IMG/VR virus record: IMGVR_UViG_3300025466_000190
Location: 1 to 22,748 of that record
Source: a virus
Strand: one strand, 5' to 3'
Length of the DNA: 22,748 bases
Shown: positions 1,426 to 21,624 of the stretch, piece after piece
How positions within the stretch are numbered: position 1 is the first letter of the stretch
Layout of the letters: the number at the start of each line of letters is the position of its first letter
The notes under the pieces: generated by a model
What the model saw: the letters and a program-made list of their open reading frames with translations, nothing else
Told to the model about the DNA's origin: nothing
The model's database searches: none
Made by a program: the position numbers and the translations under genes

Positions 1426-3816
1426 ATGCCAACGATTATCACCCGTGGAGCAGTATCGGCAAAGGCTTACGGCTTTGGTGTGTCTGGTGGTTACAGCGTA
1501 GGTAAGTCCCTGCGCTTTCGTTCGTCTGCAAGTGCGTATTTGAATAGGACTCTTGGCACTTCGACCAATGGGCAAAAATTCACATGGTCAGGGTGGGTAA
1601 AACGCGGTAAACTTGGGTCAGTTCAAGGATTGCAACACGGCTATTCCGCAAGCAATAACCAAGGCGGAATATTATTTAATTCTTCTGATATTTTGCAATT
1701 TAGTGATTATCCAACATCATCAAATGCACTGCTTCAAACTACCGCCGTTTATCGTGATCCATCCGCTTGGTATCATATTGTAGTTGCGGCTGATACAACA
1801 CAGGCAACGGCTTCAAACCGCGTACTAATGTATGTCAATGGCGTTCAAATTACGTCATTTTCTACGGCAACATACCCAACGCAGAATACTGTCCTTAATA
1901 TCAATAAAACTTCTAATACTGGTTTAATTGGTCAATATTATGACGGCACAAATAACTATTTTGATGGTTATCTTGCTGAAGTAAATATGGTTGACGGCCA
2001 AGCCCTGACGCCATCCAGCTTCGGTGCATACGACACCAACGGCGTATGGCAACCCATCAAGTACAGCGGCACGTATGGCACGAACGGGTTCTACCTGAAT
2101 TTCGGTAATACGACATCTACGACCACGCTTGGCTATGACACGTCTGGCAATAGCAATAACTGGACGACGAACAACATTTCCCTGACGGCGGGTAGCACCT
2201 ACGACAGCATGACGGATAGCCCTACGGTTACGTCTGCGTCGGTGGCGAATTATGCGGTGTTGAATCCTATATTTAATCCTAACGGCACAGTTGTAACGTA
2301 TTCAAATGCAAATTTAAATTATTCGTATTCCACACCAACGGGTGTTGCCAATAAAGCGCCAGTTCAGGGTTCAATAGCAGTAAATTCTGGAAAATGGTAT
2401 TATGAATTTACTGAAGGAAGTCCTGTAAACGCACAGGTTGGCATTACAACTGGCGTTTTATATGGTGGTAGCGCAAACGGCCCAAATTATGTTCTTATGT
2501 CCAACGGCGGTTGGAACACCACCAGTGGAAGCACTCCTGCCAACCCGTCCACTTGGACAACTGGGGCGGTCATTGGTGTTGCATTTAATCTTACAAATCA
2601 AACTGTTCAATTTTTTATTAATGGAACAAGCCAAGGAACCATAACTGGCATTACATCCGGTTTAACATGGTATCCAATTATATCTGTAAACACATCTGCA
2701 AGTGGTGGCGCAGGTTCTGTTAACTTCGGCCAACAGCCATTCACCTACACCCCGCCAACGGGCTTCAATGCACTGAACACCTACAATTTACCTACGCCTA
2801 CCATTGCAAACGGGGCGCAGTATATGGCGGCTACGACCTATACGGGTACGGGTGTTACGCAAAACGTATTGAACAGCGCCAATAATACGATTGGAACAAC
2901 CTTCCAGCCTGATTTAGTTTGGTACAAAAACAGAAGTTATTCTTCTGGGGCAAGCCATCGTTTGTTTGACGTTTCCCGTGGGACAAATGCCTTGTATTCA
3001 AATTTGACAAATGCTGAAGCAAACGAAAGTGCATATTATTCGGGAACAATTTCCAACGGGTTTACAGTCACTGGCAACGATCAATCATCAAATTTCAGTG
3101 GGTCAACATTTGTCGGTTGGCAATGGAAAGCTGGCGGCTCAACCGTCTCCAACACCAATGGCAGCATCACGTCCACCGTGTCGGCTAACACGACCGCAGG
3201 GTTCTCTGTGGTGACTTATACCGCGCCTTCAAGCGGCTCAGCAACTGTTGGGCATGGGCTGGGTGTTGCACCATCATTGGTAATTATGAAGACACGCGCC
3301 TATGTTTTGGATTGGTATGTTTATCATCAATCGTTAGGCGGGACACAATATTTAATACTTGATGGTACCGCCGCAGCAGCAACAAGTTCTGTTGTATGGA
3401 ATAACACAAACCCCACATCAACTGTATTTTCTTTGGGCGCTGGTCTTGCAACAACAGGAAACATGGTTGCCTACTGCTGGGCCGCAGTAGCTGGCTACAG
3501 TGCATTTGGATCGTACACGGGTAATGGTAGTACGGATGGCACGTTCGTGTATCTTGGATTTAGACCAAGGTTTATAATGTTCAAACGAACAGACGCAACA
3601 AGCAACTGGCTTATTATTGACAGTTCTCGTGGACCATACAATCCAGATCAAAACAGATTATTTCCTAATTTAAGTGCGGCAGAAGACACATCTGAAAATT
3701 ACGATTTGTTGTCTAACGGATTTAAACTTAGGGATGCTTCTGGATTAGCAAATAATGGTACAATAATCTACGCCGCTTTTGCGGAAAACCCGTTTAACTC
3801 GTCCCGCGCCCGATAG
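1426..3816 (+). CDS. Tail fibre / receptor-binding protein with LamG-like and SPRY-like domains
   Basis: The 796-residue product starts at an ATG preceded by AAGGATAAG, 11 bases after the previous stop. Residues ~28-240 resemble a LamG/concanavalin A-like lectin domain (FTWSGWVKRG near 52, WYHIVVAADT near 115, VLMYVNGVQI near 133, DGYLAEVNMVDGQALTPSSF near 180-199). Residues ~318-440 resemble a SPRY domain (SGKWYYEF, VIGVAFNLTNQTVQFFINGT, a final SVNFGQQPF). Residues ~485-790 contain two related blocks, PDLVWYKNR...LFDVSRG...NGFTV and PRFIMFKRT...IIDSSRG...NGFKL, an arrangement common in phage tail proteins. Such beta-sandwich lectin folds bind carbohydrate or protein receptors, so host recognition is the likely role. 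Base composition alternates sharply along the gene, suggesting a mosaic built by recombination. Domain calls rest on motif recognition and no profile search was run. Confidence 0.8.
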   Translation: MPTIITRGAVSAKAYGFGVSGGYSVGKSLRFRSSASAYLNRTLGTSTNGQKFTWSGWVKRGKLGSVQGLQHGYSASNNQGGILFNSSDILQFSDYPTSSNALLQTTAVYRDPSAWYHIVVAADTTQATASNRVLMYVNGVQITSFSTATYPTQNTVLNINKTSNTGLIGQYYDGTNNYFDGYLAEVNMVDGQALTPSSFGAYDTNGVWQPIKYSGTYGTNGFYLNFGNTTSTTTLGYDTSGNSNNWTTNNISLTAGSTYDSMTDSPTVTSASVANYAVLNPIFNPNGTVVTYSNANLNYSYSTPTGVANKAPVQGSIAVNSGKWYYEFTEGSPVNAQVGITTGVLYGGSANGPNYVLMSNGGWNTTSGSTPANPSTWTTGAVIGVAFNLTNQTVQFFINGTSQGTITGITSGLTWYPIISVNTSASGGAGSVNFGQQPFTYTPPTGFNALNTYNLPTPTIANGAQYMAATTYTGTGVTQNVLNSANNTIGTTFQPDLVWYKNRSYSSGASHRLFDVSRGTNALYSNLTNAEANESAYYSGTISNGFTVTGNDQSSNFSGSTFVGWQWKAGGSTVSNTNGSITSTVSANTTAGFSVVTYTAPSSGSATVGHGLGVAPSLVIMKTRAYVLDWYVYHQSLGGTQYLILDGTAAAATSSVVWNNTNPTSTVFSLGAGLATTGNMVAYCWAAVAGYSAFGSYTGNGSTDGTFVYLGFRPRFIMFKRTDATSNWLIIDSSRGPYNPDQNRLFPNLSAAEDTSENYDLLSNGFKLRDASGLANNGTIIYAAFAENPFNSSRAR

Positions 3817-3823
3817 GTGAAAT

Positions 3824-4282
3824 ATGTTTCTTCATAATGGCCAACAGATCAACATAGACCAGCCCTTCACTATTGGGGATACAAACTATCCTCCAAATTG
3901 GTTGCGGGAATCTACGCCTGAAATGCGTGAAGCATTGGGCATTGTTGAAATTACGTGGGGTCCACGTCCTGACGACCGTTTCTATTGGGTTCAAGAAAAC
4001 ATGGATGGGACATATACAACGTCGCCAAAAGACCTGACGCAGTTAAAGGCGACCTTTACCGCGCAAGTGGATCAAACGGCATATAGTCTGTTGTTACCAA
4101 CGGATTGGATGATTGTGCGTAAGGCAGAAACCAATGTGGCGGTTCCTGATGCCACGACAACTTACCGTGCTGCGGTTAGGGCTGGTGCGCTTGCCAACCG
4201 GACGGCAATAGCCAATGCTCCGAATGTTGAAGAACTAATTACGGCGGTTTCCTCACTTACTTGGCCTGTGGTGCAATCATGA
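3824..4282 (+). CDS. Tail fibre assembly-like protein (DUF4376-like)
   Basis: The product is 152 residues, starting at an ATG with GATAGGTG-like sequence upstream. Its N-terminal half is a small beta-rich region (FTIGDTNYPPNWL, EITWGPRPDDRFYWVQENMDGTY). Its C-terminal half has the alpha-helical pattern LLLPTDWMIVRKAET followed by TTYRAAVRAGALAN and a final VEELITAV. This tDW.v.R..E then YR..vR pattern is typical of tail-fibre assembly/chaperone proteins that sit directly downstream of the fibre they help fold. The position right after the 796-residue receptor-binding protein fits this. Its TGA overlaps the next gene's ATG (ATGA), so the two are translationally coupled. Whether it is a transient chaperone or stays in the virion cannot be read from sequence. 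Confidence 0.6.
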   Translation: MFLHNGQQINIDQPFTIGDTNYPPNWLRESTPEMREALGIVEITWGPRPDDRFYWVQENMDGTYTTSPKDLTQLKATFTAQVDQTAYSLLLPTDWMIVRKAETNVAVPDATTTYRAAVRAGALANRTAIANAPNVEELITAVSSLTWPVVQS

Positions 4283-4521
4283 CATTAGACTGGCAGCAAA
4301 TTGTTGATATTCTCATTACGGCGGGATTTGCTTGTGTAGGGTATTTTTATGCCCAAATCATTGCAGACGCCAAAAAAGACCGTCAAATGTTGAATGATTT
4401 GCGGGTTGATCTGCCAACAAAATACGTCAGCAAAGATGATTTAACTGCTCATTTAAATCGCATTGAAATGATGCTAAACAAGATTTGGGACCGTTTGGAG
4501 CAAAAGGTGGATAAGCCATGA
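4279..4521 (+). CDS. Small single-pass membrane protein, unknown function
   Basis: The chosen ATG at 4279 overlaps the previous stop (ATGA), giving 80 residues. An in-frame TTG at 4261 would add six residues but lies deeper inside the upstream gene. Residues ~5-25 form one hydrophobic segment (IVDILITAGFACVGYFYAQI). The rest is charged and helical (DAKKDRQMLNDLRVDLP, YVSKDDLTAHLNRIEMMLNK) and looks able to form a coiled coil. Similar short proteins (one N-terminal membrane helix, then LP..YV.K.d and a helix ending in K.DK) are common near lysis or tail-fibre genes in phages and resemble XhlA-type or holin-associated proteins in outline. A role in lysis is plausible but unproven. The TGA overlaps the start of the next gene by four bases. 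Confidence 0.7.
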   Translation: MTLDWQQIVDILITAGFACVGYFYAQIIADAKKDRQMLNDLRVDLPTKYVSKDDLTAHLNRIEMMLNKIWDRLEQKVDKP

Positions 4522-5456
4522 GTATTACAACCAATCTTGCCCTAAACGAACCAGCGTATAACAGTACGTCCCCAACGTGGGATCAGCCGCTTAATTATAA
4601 TGCTACCATCCTTGACCAGATGTTTGGCAACACGACAAGCGTATCTGTCAGCACCAGCGGTTCACCCACTTATACTAACATTACTGCGCCAAGTTCCACG
4701 GCAGCGGGTTCCACGTCTCAGGCTATGCGGTTTAACTTGACGGGTGCGTTGGCGGCTAACCAGACTGTGCTTTTGCCACAAAGCGTGGCAGGTATGTGGA
4801 TTGTTACCAACAGCACAACTGGCTCTTATACTGTAACGGTTGGCTCTAATAACGGAAGCAATGCGTCAGCGGGTACTACGGTTGCACCGCCACAGGGATT
4901 TAGCATCCTACTTTATTCAGACGGAACGAACGTCAAAAAGGCGGATGATGGTATTCTAAGTGCTGTTACGGCCCTTACTCTTACGGGCAATCTGGTTGTA
5001 GGCGGCACGTCTACTTTTAACGGGACATCTACCTTTAATGGTTCCGCATCCACTTTGGCGGCAATCATACAAAATGCGGCAGAACCAGCCACAATTACCG
5101 CGACTTCTGCGACCGGAACAATTAACTTTGACGTTCTTACGCAGTCGGTATTGTATTACACCACAAATGCCAGTGGCAATTTTACATTAAACTTCCGTGG
5201 TAACGGGTCAAATACGCTCAACTCCATATTGTCCACGGGTCAGGCGCTTACGTGTGTGTTTATTAACACCAATGGCTCAACGCCTTATTATGCATCTGCC
5301 TTTACTATAGACGGGACATCCGTAACCCCTAAGTGGCAGAACTTGGTTACTCCATCGTCTGGCAATGCAAGCGCGTTGGACATTTACACATTTGCCATTA
5401 TTAAAACTGGGTCTGGTACGTATACCGTTCTGGCTGGATTGGTGGGATATGCGTAA
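4518..5456 (+). CDS. Second tail fibre-like protein sharing a C-terminal module with the first
   Basis: The 312-residue product begins at an ATG overlapping the upstream TGA. The N-terminus (LALNEPAYNSTSPTWDQPLNYNATILDQMFG) is the kind of short helix-turn segment seen where phage fibre proteins attach. Residues ~60-145 are beta-rich (VLLPQSVAGMWIVTNSTTGSYT, FSILLYSDGTNVKKAD). Next is the fibre signature LTLTGNLVVGGTSTFNGTS with TSTFNG repeated in tandem. From residue 186 to the end (5073-5453) the protein matches the C-terminal module of the gene ending at 1414, including the shared strings TGTINFDV, TQSVLYYT and FTIDGTSVTPKWQ. The likely role is a second fibre or fibre-tip protein. The shared module suggests a common receptor, trimerisation or docking function for both fibres. 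Confidence 0.75.
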   Translation: MSITTNLALNEPAYNSTSPTWDQPLNYNATILDQMFGNTTSVSVSTSGSPTYTNITAPSSTAAGSTSQAMRFNLTGALAANQTVLLPQSVAGMWIVTNSTTGSYTVTVGSNNGSNASAGTTVAPPQGFSILLYSDGTNVKKADDGILSAVTALTLTGNLVVGGTSTFNGTSTFNGSASTLAAIIQNAAEPATITATSATGTINFDVLTQSVLYYTTNASGNFTLNFRGNGSNTLNSILSTGQALTCVFINTNGSTPYYASAFTIDGTSVTPKWQNLVTPSSGNASALDIYTFAIIKTGSGTYTVLAGLVGYA

Positions 5457-7489: not shown

Positions 7490-8203
7490 ATGGCCTTAAC
7501 ATACTCAAGTTACGTGCAGCAAATTAGCACAATGGCCGTCATTCCGTCCAATGATACCAATTTCACGATCATTTTGCCCCAAATGATCAGCTACGCAGAA
7601 TTGCGTATGCAGCGTGATTTAGACTTTCTTTCTACTCAAATTAGCACGACAGCTTATTCATTTACCCAAAATAACAATACGTTAACTTTACCTACGTCGC
7701 AGTTTATTGTACCGCAGACGTTTGAAGTAGTTAATTCCGGTGTTTCTTCACCGCTATTGCCAGTTACTAAAGAATTTATACAGAATGTTTACGGATCAGG
7801 TTCTACGACAGGCGTACCTCAGTATTTTGCTGTTTATGGGGGCGATACTGCTACTACAGGTAATACTAGCCAATATATGATTGTGGGGCCAACGCCTGAC
7901 AGTAACTACGGCACTATTATTACTGGCACTGTCCGGTCTGCGCCGCTTTCTGCCACAAACACGACAACTTACATTTCAACGTACCTGCCAGATATGTTTA
8001 TCATGGCAAGTATGATTTACATCTCCGCATTCCAGCGCAACTTTGGGCGTATTAACGACGACCCACAAATGGCGCAAACCTACGAAAGCCAGTATCAGGC
8101 TTTGAAAGCCAGTGCGTTGGTTGAAGAGAATCGCAAAAAATATGAGGCAGCCGCTTGGTCGTCTTATTCACCTGCCCCCGCCGCTTCGCCAACTAGGGGT
8201 TAA
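7490..8203 (+). CDS. Head-tail adaptor protein (SU10 adaptor / P22 gp4-like)
   Basis: The 237-residue protein starts at an ATG preceded by TAGGATTAAG. The N-terminal helix region (ILPQMISYAELRMQRDLDFL), then beta strands ending in FIVPQTFEVV, LPVTKEFIQNVYG, PQYFAVYGGD and a C-terminal helical part (YLPDMFIMASMIYISAFQ, then DPQMAQTYESQYQALKASALVEENRKK) is the pattern of phage adaptor proteins that dock under the portal ring. The final Ser/Pro/Ala-rich tail is likely flexible. It is directly followed by the gp10-like stabilisation protein, the same order as gp4-gp10 in P22. Expected location: a dodecameric ring between portal and nozzle that helps retain packaged DNA. Confidence 0.8.
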   Translation: MALTYSSYVQQISTMAVIPSNDTNFTIILPQMISYAELRMQRDLDFLSTQISTTAYSFTQNNNTLTLPTSQFIVPQTFEVVNSGVSSPLLPVTKEFIQNVYGSGSTTGVPQYFAVYGGDTATTGNTSQYMIVGPTPDSNYGTIITGTVRSAPLSATNTTTYISTYLPDMFIMASMIYISAFQRNFGRINDDPQMAQTYESQYQALKASALVEENRKKYEAAAWSSYSPAPAASPTRG

Positions 8204-11914: not shown

Positions 11915-14900
11915 GTGTGCGGTTCTAAAGGTACAGCTACAACCACATCGACGTATTCGCCACCACCTCAGGTACAGGCGAATTATGACATGCTTTCAGC
12001 CCAAGCACAGCAAGTCGCGGCTACACCTTTTACACCGTATACAGGGGAAATGGTTGCGGGTTTAACGCCGACTCAGCAAGCAGGTGTCCAAAACATAAAT
12101 GCGGCCGCCGCTGAAGCGCAACCATATTATCAGGCGGGTGCAGGTTTGGTGGGCAATGCCGCTACGCCATTCGGCCAACAGCAGCTTAACCAATATATGT
12201 CGCCGTATATTAATAGTGTGGCGGCGGCTACTCAAGCCAATCTTAATGAAACCAATGCCCAACAACAGCAACAACTGTTGGGCAATGCCATTAGCCAAGG
12301 CGCTTTTGGTGGTGATCGTGCGGGTGTGGCACAAGCTGAATTGGCTCGTCAGCAGGGATTAGCTGCTGGGCAAACGATGGCTAACGTCTATCAGGGCGGG
12401 TACGGTCAAGCACTTGCCCAATTCAATGCGGATCAAGCCCGTCAACTTCAGGCCGGATCACAGTTGGGTCAGCTTGGTACCGGCGCACAGACAGCAGGTC
12501 TTGCAGGTGGACAAGCGCAGATGGCGGCAGGTGCTACGCAACAGGCTGTACAACAAGCGCAAGACGTTGCGAATCAGCAGCAGTTCCAAGCGCAACAGGC
12601 TTACCCATTTCAGACGACTCAGTATCTTGCCAATCTTCTTCTTGGTATTGGCGGTCAATCTGGTGGCACGGCTCTTACAGCACAGCCACAGGGCAACATT
12701 GGCTCCTCGTTGGTTGGCGGCTTGTTGACTGCAGGTTCTCTATTTAAGCCATTTAACAAAGGCGGTGTTGTTCCCCATGATGATTCAATGGGAGGCGCTG
12801 TTCATGAGGGCGATGATCGCCAAGGTTATGCTTTGCAAGGCGGCGTAGATTCACAATACGGCGTTGACGTTCCTTATTCTGACCAGCCAACTGGTGGATC
12901 AACTAAACCATTAAGCCTTGCTGATGTTATGCGTGTCCGACATTTAGGCAGGTCATCCCCTGGTTGGTCAACAAAACCATCTGCCCCATCTTTATCTGAT
13001 GAGGGGGAAATTGATCCAAGCAAGGTTTTAAGCCAAGCAATGGCTGATCCTTCAGAAAAAGCTAATTTGCGCGGTTGGGCTAATAAGCTGATTGGCAACA
13101 CACTTGGAACTGTATCGGCAAGTGATGTTATTGGTAACAGCCAAGGAACTTATAGCCTTGGATTGAATTATGCTGACGGTGGTGTTGTAGGTCGTCATGG
13201 TTATGAGGGGGATGGTTTCGTGCCACCTGCGAATCCATATGCAGCAAAGCTTGGTACATTAGCTGATACTATCGCTCAGCAGTATCAGGATTTAAATGCC
13301 CAACCTGATCCAAATCGTCCTAAAACAATCGCAGAAACGATTGTCGGCCATCCTTTGTCAGATGAAGCCAATATGGGTTTGTTGTCTGCCGGTCTTGCCA
13401 TGATGGGCAATAAGTCGCCTATATTTGGCATCGGCGTTGGTCAAGGCGCACAAGCTGGTCTTGGCACCTATTACAATGCGCTAAAGAACAAACGCGATTT
13501 TGGAGAAAAATTGCTAGAACGCGAGGCAAATGCTTTAGGTACGGCATCTCAAGCAACGTATCAACAAGGCGATCTTGGATTGCGTGGCGAACAATTAAGG
13601 CAAGAACAGTTTAAAACTGCCTTTGACTTGGATAATAAACTTCAAGAAAAGTGGATTCCACAAAACCCAGCTGATATGCCAGACGAAATTCGTGCGCAAA
13701 ATCCAAATGCAAAGAATTGGTATAAAAATTTAAGTACTGGGCAAACAATTTCTGAAGACCAATACTTTAAAATTTTTGAAGATAATGCCTCATTGCTTCG
13801 TCTTCCAAGGGGATTAAGTTCTGTTTTAAGATCCAATACTATTCCCCCTAGAGAAGCAAAAGGGGGAAGAATTGGGTTGGCTCTTGGCGGCGTTGACCCT
13901 TCGGTGGTACCCGAAGATGATCAGGTGTCGGGGGCTATTAAAGATAAGCAAGATATGTCCAAGTTAATCTCGTCTACTTTAGGGGCGGGAGAAGGCGATG
14001 TTGATAAGACTCAACCAATGGTTCAAGTTGCCGATGCTTTGGGCGATATTGCTAAAAATGCTAAACCTTCAAAAGCATTCCCAGATATGGCTCCGACTGG
14101 TACTCCAGACTATTGGAATTCAGTTGCGAAGTATTGGGAAGATAAAAATAAATGGCTTTCCACGTTCGGGTCATCGCGTGAAAAAGAAGCGGCTGAGGCA
14201 CTTGAAAATGCAAGTAAATATAGGACATTAGCAAAAGATATTGCTAATGGTGATGCCCCTACTCAGTTAGTTGACCCCGATACGGGTGAACCCGCAGGTA
14301 TGGGCAAGTCTCCGTCAGCAGTGGCGGCCGCGCAACAACGTGCGGCTGAAGCAACAAAAAGGACAGAAATATCCAAAAATGAAGCGGCTGATTTAAAGGC
14401 ATACAACGACGAAACTGGTAAATTTTTACAAGAATTTGGTAAAAATGAACAACTTTTGGACACGTTGACTAAAATTTACCAAAATGTTTCCAGTAACAAT
14501 CTTTCTGGGCTTCGGGCGCAGTTAATTGGTTATATGCAGTCGGCAGGTATTGACCATTTTGGCAATATCAGCCTTGAACAGATTCAATCTGGTGATGCTA
14601 CCGCTGTTAAGGCAGCGACAAGTCAAGCAATTGAAACTGTGGCAGCTGAGTTAGGAAGATCACCTGCTGTAGGATTAAAAACTACTTTAAAAACAGTTGC
14701 CTCTCCTGATCTTCCCGCAACATCTCGATATCAATTAATTCAAAATGCTTATGCAGAATTAATGCAAGAAAAAGATTTACGAGAAGCGTGGCTTGATGCG
14801 GGGAAACCCGATCCAAATACTTTTGCAAAAAAATGGCGCAACCAGACAGATGATGATGGTGTGCCATTGCATGATTTAAATGCTTACCGCCAATATGTTA

Positions 14901-15067
14901 CCGACAACAAATTGGGTGGTAAAAAAGGTTTATTCCCTGGCATGAATGAAGAAAGCATGAAAAATCTGCTTAATAAGCCAACTGAACTTTGGGATGAAAA
15001 GGCCGCAAATCCAAATGTTCCTGCGGGAGCATTGATTTGGAATCCTAAAACTGGGTTTGGAGGCTAA
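11915..15067 (+). CDS. Large ejection (internal virion) protein
   Basis: The 1050-residue product starts at GTG preceded by TAGGAGATAG. The N-terminus MCGSKGTATTTSTYSPPPQV followed by QQVAATPFTPYTGEMVAGLTPTQQAGV is a pattern I recognise from podophage DNA-ejection or internal virion proteins. Residues ~60-235 are extremely Gln/Ala-rich and helical. Gly-Gly linkers follow at ~282-310 (NKGGVVPHDDSMGGAVHEGD) and ~419-435 (ADGGVVGRHGYEGDGF), with a third near 13855-13900 (AKGGRIGLALGGVD). Residues ~480-530 (GLLSAGLAMMGNKSPIFGIGVGQGAQ etc.) look membrane-active. The rest is helical and charged. It is probably stored in the capsid and ejected to form the trans-envelope channel, with the next gene product. 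Confidence 0.75.
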   Translation: MCGSKGTATTTSTYSPPPQVQANYDMLSAQAQQVAATPFTPYTGEMVAGLTPTQQAGVQNINAAAAEAQPYYQAGAGLVGNAATPFGQQQLNQYMSPYINSVAAATQANLNETNAQQQQQLLGNAISQGAFGGDRAGVAQAELARQQGLAAGQTMANVYQGGYGQALAQFNADQARQLQAGSQLGQLGTGAQTAGLAGGQAQMAAGATQQAVQQAQDVANQQQFQAQQAYPFQTTQYLANLLLGIGGQSGGTALTAQPQGNIGSSLVGGLLTAGSLFKPFNKGGVVPHDDSMGGAVHEGDDRQGYALQGGVDSQYGVDVPYSDQPTGGSTKPLSLADVMRVRHLGRSSPGWSTKPSAPSLSDEGEIDPSKVLSQAMADPSEKANLRGWANKLIGNTLGTVSASDVIGNSQGTYSLGLNYADGGVVGRHGYEGDGFVPPANPYAAKLGTLADTIAQQYQDLNAQPDPNRPKTIAETIVGHPLSDEANMGLLSAGLAMMGNKSPIFGIGVGQGAQAGLGTYYNALKNKRDFGEKLLEREANALGTASQATYQQGDLGLRGEQLRQEQFKTAFDLDNKLQEKWIPQNPADMPDEIRAQNPNAKNWYKNLSTGQTISEDQYFKIFEDNASLLRLPRGLSSVLRSNTIPPREAKGGRIGLALGGVDPSVVPEDDQVSGAIKDKQDMSKLISSTLGAGEGDVDKTQPMVQVADALGDIAKNAKPSKAFPDMAPTGTPDYWNSVAKYWEDKNKWLSTFGSSREKEAAEALENASKYRTLAKDIANGDAPTQLVDPDTGEPAGMGKSPSAVAAAQQRAAEATKRTEISKNEAADLKAYNDETGKFLQEFGKNEQLLDTLTKIYQNVSSNNLSGLRAQLIGYMQSAGIDHFGNISLEQIQSGDATAVKAATSQAIETVAAELGRSPAVGLKTTLKTVASPDLPATSRYQLIQNAYAELMQEKDLREAWLDAGKPDPNTFAKKWRNQTDDDGVPLHDLNAYRQYVTDNKLGGKKGLFPGMNEESMKNLLNKPTELWDEKAANPNVPAGALIWNPKTGFGG

Positions 15068-17842: not shown

Positions 17843-18199
17843 TCAACGCGGTACGATGGTGCCATCCATCTTCTTTTTCCATTTGGACATCTTACCATAT
17901 GGCATCGGCGAACGCGACTGTTTTAAGCCAAGATGGTTTTGCTTAACTCTTTTTGCTTTTGCTGCCATTTTATGATCCTTTTTTGTTTTTTCTTTTGCGC
18001 AAGGCTTGCATGTAAGCCTTATATTGTCGTCTGTGTCAGTCCCGCCTAATTCTAAAGCACGAACGTGTTCGTAAATAAATTGTCCAGTCATTAGTTTTAC
18101 GCCGCATTCCATGCAGCATCCGCGTTCACGCTCCCAAATGGCTAACTTTCTTTTGCCAGATAAACTGCCACGCGCTGTAGTGCCTACATCTTCAGTCAT
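17843..18199 (-). CDS. HNH endonuclease-like protein
   Basis: The 118-residue product contains Cys29-x2-Cys32 (CMEC), then YEHVRALELGGTDTDDNIRL with His45 and Asn59, then CKPCAKEKTKKDH with Cys64 and Cys67. This is the HNH layout with a zinc-binding Cys4 frame: histidine, asparagine, then KT..D. The C-terminal tail (KRVKQNHLGLK...GKMSKWKKKMDGTIVPR) is a basic extension common in phage versions. The residue after the last Cys is Ala68, where many relatives have His (CHxxKT). That His is the final metal ligand in the classic motif, so activity is uncertain. Phage HNH proteins act in packaging or as nicking or homing nucleases; here the early-operon position argues for DNA processing. It overlaps the upstream nuclease gene by eight bases. 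Confidence 0.85.
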   Translation of the reverse strand: MTEDVGTTARGSLSGKRKLAIWERERGCCMECGVKLMTGQFIYEHVRALELGGTDTDDNIRLTCKPCAKEKTKKDHKMAAKAKRVKQNHLGLKQSRSPMPYGKMSKWKKKMDGTIVPR

Positions 18200-19508: not shown

Positions 19509-20189
19509 TTACTTTCCTTTCTTTTCAGCGTTTATTTCTTTTACGCGGTCTGCACATAGTTGACGCAAAGCCTCGTAATCTGCATCGTCTTTATTCAAGT
19601 TCATCTTGGTGAAGTTTTCTTTTAACTCCTGCTTCCAAAAGTCTTGAACCTCTTTAACCGTCCGGCACATTTCAATCGCCATCTGGAATACTTTCATATA
19701 GGTATATAAGTCTTTAGTATAATCCGGCCAATGGCTTAACGCATCGCTATTTGCCACTGACTCATGTGCCACTGGCGTAGTATCCCGCTCAGGATCATCG
19801 CCTGTTTCAATCTGGAATAGCTTGAACAAAAAATACTTATTTGCGCCAGTGATTGCCTTATAAAGCCCCTTATCACCAACCGTGCCATTTTTGGCACGAT
19901 CGTTACCACATCCGGCAACACGAATCAGATGAGGCCAGATATCGCCATCCTTGTGGACAATCTCATACCGCATATCCACAACCGTATTGCCATGCTCGTC
20001 CATAGGGCGAACCATTTCAATCGATGGGATTAAGATAAGACCCTCCTCAATCAAGGCGGGACGCAACTTCTCAAGCAAATCAGCTTCAGAAACATACTTG
20101 TAACCGTGAAACTTATTCTCACTACCCTTTTGAACATACGTAACTTTGGTCATTACGTTATGCAGGGCTAATGCAATCTTTGCACTCAC
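19509..20189 (-). CDS. erf: Erf-family single-strand annealing protein
   Basis: The chosen start is the GTG at 20189. It has GGGGAG nine bases upstream, follows the previous stop by four bases and gives VSAKIALALHNVMTKVTYVQ, the usual Erf opening. An ATG at 20252 would add 21 residues and overlap the upstream gene by 59 bases. The 226-residue product has the Erf core: KFHGYKYVSEADLLEKLRPA, a strand DMRYEIVHKDG, and GTVGDKGLYKAITGANKYFL followed by FQIETGDDPE. Erf proteins form rings on single-stranded DNA and promote strand annealing and genome circularisation or recombination, as in P22. The C-terminal ~70 residues are helical and differ from the core, possibly a partner-binding part. Neighbours (Gp157, SSB-like, nuclease, RusA) fit recombination. 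Confidence 0.9.
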   Translation of the reverse strand: MSAKIALALHNVMTKVTYVQKGSENKFHGYKYVSEADLLEKLRPALIEEGLILIPSIEMVRPMDEHGNTVVDMRYEIVHKDGDIWPHLIRVAGCGNDRAKNGTVGDKGLYKAITGANKYFLFKLFQIETGDDPERDTTPVAHESVANSDALSHWPDYTKDLYTYMKVFQMAIEMCRTVKEVQDFWKQELKENFTKMNLNKDDADYEALRQLCADRVKEINAEKKGK

Positions 20190-20193
20190 TGGC

Positions 20194-20691
20194 TTATGCT
20201 CCCCTAATGACGATGGTGGTTCCACCGTTTGAGAGCGTAACACCTGGCACATCCATTTTCTCCAACATTTCTTTCAACAGTACTTTGTTTGGTTCTTTTT
20301 TGATTCGCATAAAGTCATCTGGAATTTCGTATTCATTCAGCACAACGACTTGCGGCGGCGTATTCATCAGTGACAAAGTTGCCGTTGGAAACTCAAGTTT
20401 GCGCACATCGGCAGCTTCCATAAGTCGCTTCATCAGTTCCCGACCAAAGTCTACGCGCTTGTCAAACCGCTTACGACGATCGTGAATATCACGCTCGGCT
20501 GCCTGACACGCATTGGACAAGTAAATATTGTCCTGTGTGCGGCGCAATAGTTTTTCCATTGTTTCGCGGAAATCCGTCGCACCCTCAAGCATATCTGCTT
20601 TCAGTTCCTCATCTTCTTTAAGTTCTGGGTAACGCTCAAGAAGCAACTCAATGGTTCTCTTAAGCATATCTACGTCGTATTTGCTTTTCAT
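20194..20691 (-). CDS. Gp157-family protein
   Basis: The ATG at 20691 has AGAAAGG upstream at suitable spacing and gives 165 residues. An in-frame ATG at 20760 would add 23 residues that run through the control region and look non-coding. The long N-terminal helical part (residues ~1-105, charged coiled coil with LLERYPELKEDEEL and a basic RDIHDRRKRFDKRVDFGRE) precedes the beta part KLEFPTATLSLMNTPPQVVVL, EIPDDFMRIKKEPNKVLLKE and DVPGVTLSNGGTTIVIRG. This matches the Siphovirus Gp157 family, first described in Streptococcus thermophilus phage Sfi11 and linked to phage resistance and DNA metabolism. It opens the leftward operon directly upstream of Erf, as in many phages, suggesting an early recombination or replication helper. 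Confidence 0.88.
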   Translation of the reverse strand: MKSKYDVDMLKRTIELLLERYPELKEDEELKADMLEGATDFRETMEKLLRRTQDNIYLSNACQAAERDIHDRRKRFDKRVDFGRELMKRLMEAADVRKLEFPTATLSLMNTPPQVVVLNEYEIPDDFMRIKKEPNKVLLKEMLEKMDVPGVTLSNGGTTIVIRGA

Positions 20692-21043: not shown

Positions 21044-21254
21044 GCATCCACTGCGCCAATGGCGTAGAAAAAATAACGTGATTCTAACCGACTTTGCTAA
21101 GTTGGCGGGAACAACTGCATCGTCCATTTCCCGTGTTGAGCGTGGCGTTCAAGACCCATCATTGAATTTGATGGTCAGGATTGTAAGAGCAACAAACAAG
21201 GAAATTACACTACACCATTTTTTCCTTGATTGGAAGCAGCATGATCAAGCTTGA
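21036..21254 (+). CDS. XRE-family helix-turn-helix regulator
   Basis: The 72-residue protein is essentially one HTH domain: PLRQWRRKNNVILTDFAKLAG (helices 1 and 2), TTASSISRVERGVQDPSL (turn, recognition helix and the 'ISR.E.G...PSl' signature), and LMVRIVRATNKEITLHHFF (helices 4 and 5). This is the Cro/CI-type (HTH_3) fold. There is no cleavage or oligomerisation domain, so it resembles a Cro-like or small accessory repressor rather than a CI repressor. Being second in the rightward operon behind the divergent region, it is the natural candidate to bind the inverted repeats at 20708-20730 and autoregulate. The ATG at 21036 overlaps the previous gene by eight bases. Confidence 0.85.
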   Translation: MNEHPLRQWRRKNNVILTDFAKLAGTTASSISRVERGVQDPSLNLMVRIVRATNKEITLHHFFLDWKQHDQA

Positions 21255-21624
21255 GTTGCCATTGGCCCCTAGCACAAACCGTTTATGGAAAGTAGGCAAA
21301 GGTGGTCGTATGTATCGTTCCCCTGAATACGTGGCTTGGCTTGAAGAAGCTTCTTGGATGGTCAAGTCACAGACCAAGGATCAAATACTTGGGCAGTATA
21401 TCGTTCACATCTCCGCGACGAAGCCGGACAAAAGGCGTCGGGATTTGGATAACTTATTAAAATCAACAAGCGACCTTTTGGTTAAAACTAAAGTAGTAGA
21501 AGATGATTCGGAATGTAAAGCTATCGCTGCAGAGTGGGGCGATCATGGTGTACCTATGGTAGTGACCGTATATGGTCTTGAGGAAGATGCATGGACAGAG
21601 AACCGCAGACTTACGATGAACTGA
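21241..21624 (+). CDS. rusA: RusA-family Holliday junction resolvase
   Basis: From the ATG at 21241 (GGAAG upstream) the product is 127 residues; a TTG at 21226 is less likely. Typical RusA features are visible: LPLAPSTNRLWKVG near the start, MYRSPEYVAWLEEASWMV, the acidic core RRDLDNLLKSTSDLLV with Asp68, Asp70 and Lys74, then VVEDDSE with Asp88/Asp89. These match the catalytic carboxylates and lysine of E. coli RusA. It resolves four-way DNA junctions made during recombination or replication, fitting the Erf-Gp157 genes on the other strand. The C-terminal ~20 residues extend beyond the core. The gene overlaps its neighbours by 14 and 34 bases. Confidence 0.93.
   Translation: MIKLELPLAPSTNRLWKVGKGGRMYRSPEYVAWLEEASWMVKSQTKDQILGQYIVHISATKPDKRRRDLDNLLKSTSDLLVKTKVVEDDSECKAIAAEWGDHGVPMVVTVYGLEEDAWTENRRLTMN

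Follow-up and report, generated by a model that had tools for sequence, protein, structure and literature searches.

Tetart, Desplats and Krisch are said to have described, in 1998, distal tail-fibre adhesins of T-even phages in which conserved motifs are the recombination points that swap binding specificity. A change in phage binding decides which bacteria can be infected. Phage T4 has free-standing homing nucleases that act on the genes beside them and lead to co-conversion (PMC2988022), and nuclease genes at the boundaries of genetic exchange are also known (PMC10448857). The locus described here is the gene at positions 1426–3816 of a stretch of virus DNA of 22,748 nucleotides (the window, i.e., the whole stretch that was analysed). 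It very probably represents a cassette array, in which five modules are swapped by crossovers in the joints, with the GC3 contrast along the gene as a separate conserved property.

The open reading frame 1426–3816 on the + strand encodes 796 amino acids. Its product is predicted to be a receptor-binding or virion-surface protein with five modules, and its PHROGs matches are phrog_19943 (virion structural protein) and phrog_24898 (tail fiber). Pfam places a SPRY domain at residues 323–437 (PF00622, E 3.4e-9, 37.3 bits vs a cut-off of 26.3) and DUF7483 at residues 464–789 (PF24299, 356 bits vs a cut-off of 27); no paper mentioning the name DUF7483 was found in a literature search. The AlphaFold2 model of the protein, based on 60 aligned homologues, has a mean pLDDT of 87. 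Foldseek matched the SPRY fold to PRYSPRY crystal structures (E about 1e-8) and module 1 to laminin and neurexin LG domains in long, multi-domain alignments. No LamG match was obtained for module 1 in Pfam at E ≤ 1, and it is by its modelled fold a putative LG-like (LamG-like) beta-sandwich. DUF7483 consists of three homologous repeats (hhalign probability 98.3% for R1–R2, 98.3% for R1–R3, and 96.8% for the remaining pair). Each joint comprises the end of one domain (its last strand), a linker, and the start (first strand) of the next domain. With the repeats and domain folds mapped, the G+C-rich segments therefore lie at the borders of five modules. The parts of the gene are as follows.

1426–3816, +, putative receptor-binding protein gene with five modules (ORF, Pfam, PHROGs, AlphaFold2)
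1426–1533, +, N-terminal conserved GC3-shifted edge, the upstream joint (GC3 residual positive in 76–79% of homologues)
1534–1965, +, module 1, LG-like (Foldseek LG matches; 97% nucleotide identity with L003)
1966–2253, +, joint J1, last strand of module 1 and linker to SPRY (GC3-rich in 97–100% of homologues)
2254–2721, +, module 2, SPRY (Pfam PF00622; Foldseek PRYSPRY)
2722–2829, +, joint J2, from the end of SPRY (NFGQQPFTYTPPTGF) to the start of R1 (GC3-rich in homologues)
2830–3153, +, module 3, DUF7483 repeat R1 (hhalign)
3154–3225, +, joint J3 (GC3, identity switches)
3226–3441, +, module 4, DUF7483 repeat R2 (hhalign)
3442–3549, +, joint J4 (GC3, identity switches)
3550–3765, +, module 5, DUF7483 repeat R3 (hhalign)
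3766–3813, +, C-terminal conserved GC3-shifted edge (positive in 88% of homologues)

The arrangement varies among relatives. Five homologues (L024, L048, L058, L060, and L080) align through J2 and then continue without the DUF7483 repeats, which suggests that other C-terminal modules can come after J2. In pelagiphage isolates (L229–L240), the protein is split near J2 into two adjacent ORFs, one with LG and SPRY and one with the DUF7483 repeats. The contig IMGVR_UViG_3300025389_000038 (41.7 kb; loci L256 and L272) contains the J1 DNA motif at two separate places, a sign that this phage may carry two receptor-binding genes. In the window, the downstream gene 3824–4282 has a weak match to phrog_4912 (tail fiber assembly family, E 0.0014) and possibly encodes a chaperone for the putative receptor-binding protein. 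The genes 326–1414 and 4518–5456 flank the putative receptor-binding gene, and their C-terminal domains (both phrog_5906) contain the two copies of a 55-bp repeat (83.6%; 1065–1119 and 5107–5161). Recombination between these copies could delete the putative receptor-binding gene.

An alternation of G+C along 1426–3816 had been claimed in a sequence-only reading, and the sliding profile confirmed it at the places named, where it is more marked than had been stated. The segments 1981–2270, 2721–2870, 3130–3245, and 3475–3550 have a G+C of 0.535, 0.527, 0.605, and 0.560, respectively, compared with 0.41, 0.42, 0.41, 0.45, and 0.40 between them. The GC3 of all codons is 0.69, 0.60, 0.68, and 0.52 in the rich segments and 0.27–0.38 in the stretches between; at four-fold sites it is 0.70, 0.60, 0.67, and 0.53 compared with 0.22–0.36 in the module segments. 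The contrast sits at silent codon positions. The GC3 predicted from the amino-acid content and the phage's own codon usage is flat, with 0.38–0.42 throughout the gene, which rules out amino-acid composition as its source. The same reading had named a flat profile as evidence against its claim; instead, the variance of windowed GC3 (0.0196 vs 0.0046 after shuffling of synonymous codons) was reached in 0 of 500 shuffles. The rich parts, which it had taken for linkers, include the flanking strands as well and are not pure linkers.

Among the 11 genes tested, 7490–8203 was the next clearest case of uneven GC3 (P about 0.01) and 11915–15067 was marginal (P about 0.014); the majority of the window's genes have no comparable pattern. 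The gene 7490–8203, whose product is a head/packaging-type virion protein, has a GC3 of about 0.6 at both ends and 0.23 in the middle. The highest GC3 in same-sized windows of the window's other genes was 0.604 for J1 (0.656), 0.667 for J2 (0.667), and 0.750 for J3 (0.750), and the GC3 of J4 (0.47) was below the top windows of this kind. The N-terminus (1426–1533) and, across homologues, the C-terminus (3766–3813) belong to the same GC3-shifted class. Inside module 1, the codons of 1741–1794 (YRDPSAWYHIVV) are conserved and their GC3 is low, unlike in the joints.

The comparison across phages was based on one scan with 80 loci and three more, which gave 179 distinct homologues in addition to the window; a fourth viral scan, with L029 as the query, gave six loci only. 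GC3 residuals were adjusted for the mean of each gene and for each amino acid. In every GC class (<0.2 to >0.5), the residual was positive for J1 in 97–100% and for J2 in 95–100% of the sequences. The joint boundaries had been drawn on the first homologue set, and in the 117 homologues held out, J1 was positive in 100% and J2 in 98%. Counted by cluster, J1 was positive in 87 out of 90; J3 and J4 were weaker (positive in 69% and 72%, respectively). On the logit scale, J1 lay above module 1 by about 1.0–1.2, a roughly constant offset across the GC classes. The step is clear in isolates of intermediate GC (CRP-811, CRP-406), whereas AT-rich pelagiphages show only small absolute differences.

For the cause of this offset, two options are live, namely an accessory-like AT shift of the modules together with selection on the joints, or a recombination-linked GC bias. 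Selection on codons or RNA (for accuracy, mRNA folding, or inter-domain pausing), which would account for the composition only and is compatible with exchange, is a possible though rather doubtful cause of the raised joint GC3. It would fit the conservation of the joints and their location at domain boundaries, and the higher GC of bacterial core genes compared with accessory genes has likewise been attributed to selective constraint (PMC5303225). However, the joint effect still has a t of 16.8 once conservation is taken into account; joint sites are GC-rich even where they are poorly conserved, and strongly conserved sites in the modules lack this richness. Translation accuracy at conserved residues was rejected because the joint effect persists at every conservation level. 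RNA structure was rejected as well: in J1–J2 the folding energy is no lower than in the modules and no stronger when compared with synonymous shuffles. Codon usage also argues against such selection. In mid-GC phages, nearly all amino acids shift to G- or C-ending codons, including CGG and AAG, and Leu and Arg codons shift to C at the first position, so that the shift looks general rather than codon-specific. In AT-rich phages the shift is less regular, and some codons there are conserved by descent.

Alternatively, the joint offset may be a by-product of their use for crossovers, either through GC-biased heteroduplex repair or through selection for strongly pairing DNA, which is conceivable but unlikely. 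If this were true, the recombination joints would have left a permanent mark in the composition of the gene, and the offset of 1.0–1.2 logits would measure the bias in wild phages. Joints defined by synonymous identity alone, with a gene-wide codon expectation, coincide with the same places; they also flag the GC-poor stretch 1741–1794. The smoothed identity measure, based on gene-wide codon usage, correlated with GC3 at r 0.15, and at 0.12 in separate bins, which was not significant. Both the conserved but GC-poor motif of module 1 and the weakness of the fine-scale correlation call for caution against a simple recombination cause. A literature search on GC-biased conversion in phage receptor genes found no paper on the subject.

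The sequence-only reading had taken the patchwork for what is left of modules that came from donors with another composition, which is very improbable. The modules are indeed exchanged, and their GC3 is sharply different from that of the joints, but the contrast appears at identical places in the 117 held-out homologues. Modules have a lower GC3 than the neighbouring genes in 162 of 170 loci, in phages from AT-rich to GC-rich, and joints have a higher one in 139 of 170. Symmetrical exchange would scatter the modules in both directions, and their predominantly low position thus speaks against donor composition. Phages sharing a module are nearly equal in flank GC3, with a median difference of 0.026 vs 0.153 for random pairs. 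Since the modules are mostly below their flanks and the sharers nearly equal in flank GC3, donor composition does not explain the patchwork. In the window, moreover, it is the rich parts, not the poor ones, that deviate more from the phage's gene average (about 0.38). The interpretation of the patchwork as a trace of exchange was therefore abandoned, given GC3-rich joints in all GC classes and in the held-out homologues, and alike flanks in the sharers. From the homologous sequences, the GC3 contrast appears to be a conserved property separate from exchange, which marks the edges of the modules and is not imported from donors. Within one gene, the modules look like AT-shifted accessory DNA and the joints like GC-shifted core DNA.

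The claim that modules are exchanged between conserved joints, in contrast, was borne out. Comparison of the homologues shows exchange, apparently with boundaries at the joints and a near-independent assortment of the modules. The closest relatives of the window, L003 and L004, are 92–93% identical to it in the upstream DNA and 86–92% in the downstream genes, and the joints match at 82–94%, while most modules are unmatched in blastn. In L003, the blastn match extends from the N-terminus to J1 and then covers only the regions of J2, J3, and J4 (85, 82, and 94%, respectively); module 1 is 97% identical, whereas SPRY and the repeats are at 47–57%. The match to L004 comprises parts of module 1, J1, J2, and a J3–J4 stretch. 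The SPRY module of the window had no blastn match in L003 or L004. Along pairs of homologues, identity is generally 85–99% at the joints and 40–60% between them, except for single shared modules at 90–100%. At shared residues of pairs that are 55–65% identical, synonymous identity is 0.61–0.69 in J1–J4 (0.36–0.43 expected) and 0.50–0.56 in the modules (0.44–0.51 expected), which is near saturation.

Pairwise identities of different modules were practically uncorrelated (Spearman −0.13 to 0.09), compared with 0.14–0.46 within a module. The two SPRY halves correlated at 0.46, and coherence was weak within repeat R3 (0.14) and module 1 (0.20). The module histories thus disagree; agreement among them had been named in the sequence-only reading as evidence against exchange. 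Such independent assortment is what a modular phage receptor-binding protein should display. J1b and J2 correlated at 0.56 across the uncorrelated SPRY, as would follow from cassette replacement between joints that are still linked. In 58 of 80 flagged pairs, which are not independent events, exactly one module was common at ≥85% and all others were at ≤70%. In the pair L072/L161, module 1 has been exchanged, modules 2–4 are 99–100% identical, as are all joints, and the last module is at 84%.

Switches between shared and unshared sequence were placed by change-point analysis with an uncertainty interval. They overlapped a joint in 91 of 105 cases (65.5 expected), as the proposed alignment of relatives had been meant to reveal, and the saturated side starts near the joint edge. 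Crossovers in the conserved joints are thereby indicated, with weaker evidence under a strict tract-end model (96% vs 80%), in which 51 of 142 ends lay in joints (29% expected). This enrichment is modest because older shared modules at 85–90% end the tract early, which is why the change-point analysis was used; the result of the strict model also implies that some exchange ends lie inside modules.

These patterns would arise from co-infection: where two related phages entered the same cell, homologous crossing over within the joints would replace single modules, so that among close kin the joints would stay with the rest of the genome and the modules would be drawn from a shared pool. The modules presumably bind receptors. 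The annealase and resolvase described below, or host enzymes, may perform the crossing over, and nucleases at the 3′ edge in relatives may start some of the exchange events.

It is highly improbable that the mosaics are chimaeras of metagenome assembly, joined at conserved joints. Most loci are metagenomic, and joints of 72–288 bp with high identity could mislead assemblers. However, the window gene was found at 99.9% in two other metagenome records, and the alternation is also present in finished isolate genomes, so it is not an assembly artefact. In HTVC204P and HTVC011P, the joints are 83–87% and the modules 50–60% identical (J1: 276 bp at 90.6%), and Greip shows the same alternation. HTVC031P and Skadi-4 share module 1 at 97%, with the repeat modules at 56–63%. 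The genomes of HTVC204P and HTVC011P match in blastn mainly in the tail-fibre/receptor region and in a few short stretches; HTVC011P belongs to the Autographiviridae and carries genes for an RNA polymerase and an integrase, both of which are absent from the annotation of HTVC204P. The joint similarity thus crosses phage lineages, which implies transfer of the region as well as vertical descent. Divergence of the modules in place by diversifying selection or hypermutation (e.g., by a diversity-generating retroelement), without exchange, is hardly credible: the modules are the variable parts, but their synonymous sites are near saturation while the joints of the same pair are not, single modules are common at 90–100% to otherwise different genes in different combinations, and 40–60% nucleotide identity with length changes exceeds what adenine-directed mutation would give, so that fast evolution in place was ruled out.

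Two candidate recombination enzymes are encoded in the window.

19509–20252, −, Erf-like single-stranded DNA annealase (Pfam PF04404, E 1.1e-17; phrog_155)
21226–21624, +, RusA-like Holliday junction resolvase (Pfam PF05866, E 2.5e-10; phrog_34)

A role of Erf as the necessary driver was not supported by related records, all of which are possibly fragments: ERF was present in 7 of 25, RecT matches below the cut-off in 3 of 21, and Rad52 in 0 of 21. The annotation of HTVC011P, an isolate with the same joints, lists no annealase; a single-stranded DNA-binding protein (SSB) and an exonuclease are present.

At the 3′ end of the gene, an HNH or endonuclease-VII-type gene directly adjoins it in 29 of about 168 relatives. 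In L003, an HNH endonuclease (phrog_374; L003:6453–7061) is located between the putative receptor-binding gene and the next gene; the endonuclease-VII-type protein at the same 3′ site of L004 (L004:2780–3301) differs from it. The corresponding site of the window is empty.

3814–3826, +, empty nuclease site (stop codon 3814–3816, 7-nt spacer, start at 3824)

A profile of the L003 nuclease found 32 members in 1.5 Mb of loci, with 29 at the 3′ end, 2 at the 5′ end, and 1 elsewhere; having been seeded from a member at the 3′ site, the profile would overlook other families of nucleases located elsewhere. In an independent check of the next-downstream genes, Endonuclease_7 matched 15 of 141 and HNH_3 matched 3 of 141. 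Domain and position in the relatives, not in the window, correspond to those of free-standing homing endonucleases, as the nuclease abuts the 3′ end and the site is empty in kin. The nucleases at the 3′ edge are thus candidates for such endonucleases, which might drive the conversion of receptor modules. Genes that carry a nuclease were not clearly more frequent in pairs with a shared module (odds ratio 2.0, P 0.10). Elsewhere in the window, a small HNH endonuclease gene (17843–18199, − strand; PF01844, phrog_333) overlaps an SLT-type lytic transglycosylase gene.

Aquatic phages carry this gene family in abundance, and the exchange of single modules is visible in many natural combinations, in uncultured phages as well as in isolates. 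Because the swaps are seen between long joints in many combinations, the unit of exchange and its borders are measurable from sequence alone. Were recombination the cause of the GC3 step, GC-biased conversion in phages could be measured from it; were selection the cause, a single gene would contain two codon regimes. In relatives, the nuclease hotspot at the 3′ edge is a possible, testable engine for receptor-gene conversion.

By analogy with the T-even adhesins, conserved motifs would serve as recombination points in this gene too; unlike there, the gene has five modules of three fold types and four joints of 72–288 bp with a GC offset at silent sites. A further parallel is found in metaviromic islands, where, according to the relevant passages of two studies (PMC3909814, PMC7468147), host-recognition genes of similar phages vary by domain and the variants recur. 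The variable genes and domains were obtained there from read recruitment and reconstruction, and these passages do not discuss joints or silent-site composition, unlike the present analysis. The domain mosaicism of phage proteins described by Smug and others (PMC10684548), with tail fibres as hotspots of ongoing fragment shuffling, is similar as well; the text of that study does not mention LamG, SPRY, linker, or GC content, whereas here the crossovers were mapped within one protein family. As in other phages (PMC10448857) and in T4 (PMC2988022), HNH-type nuclease genes adjoin exchanged or essential genes and may co-convert their neighbours; tail fibres and receptors are absent from PMC10448857, whereas the putative hotspot in the relatives studied here is the 3′ edge of a putative receptor-binding gene. 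The conserved DNA is GC-richer than the mobile DNA, as in the core and accessory genes of bacteria (PMC5303225), but in this gene family the step repeats inside a single gene.
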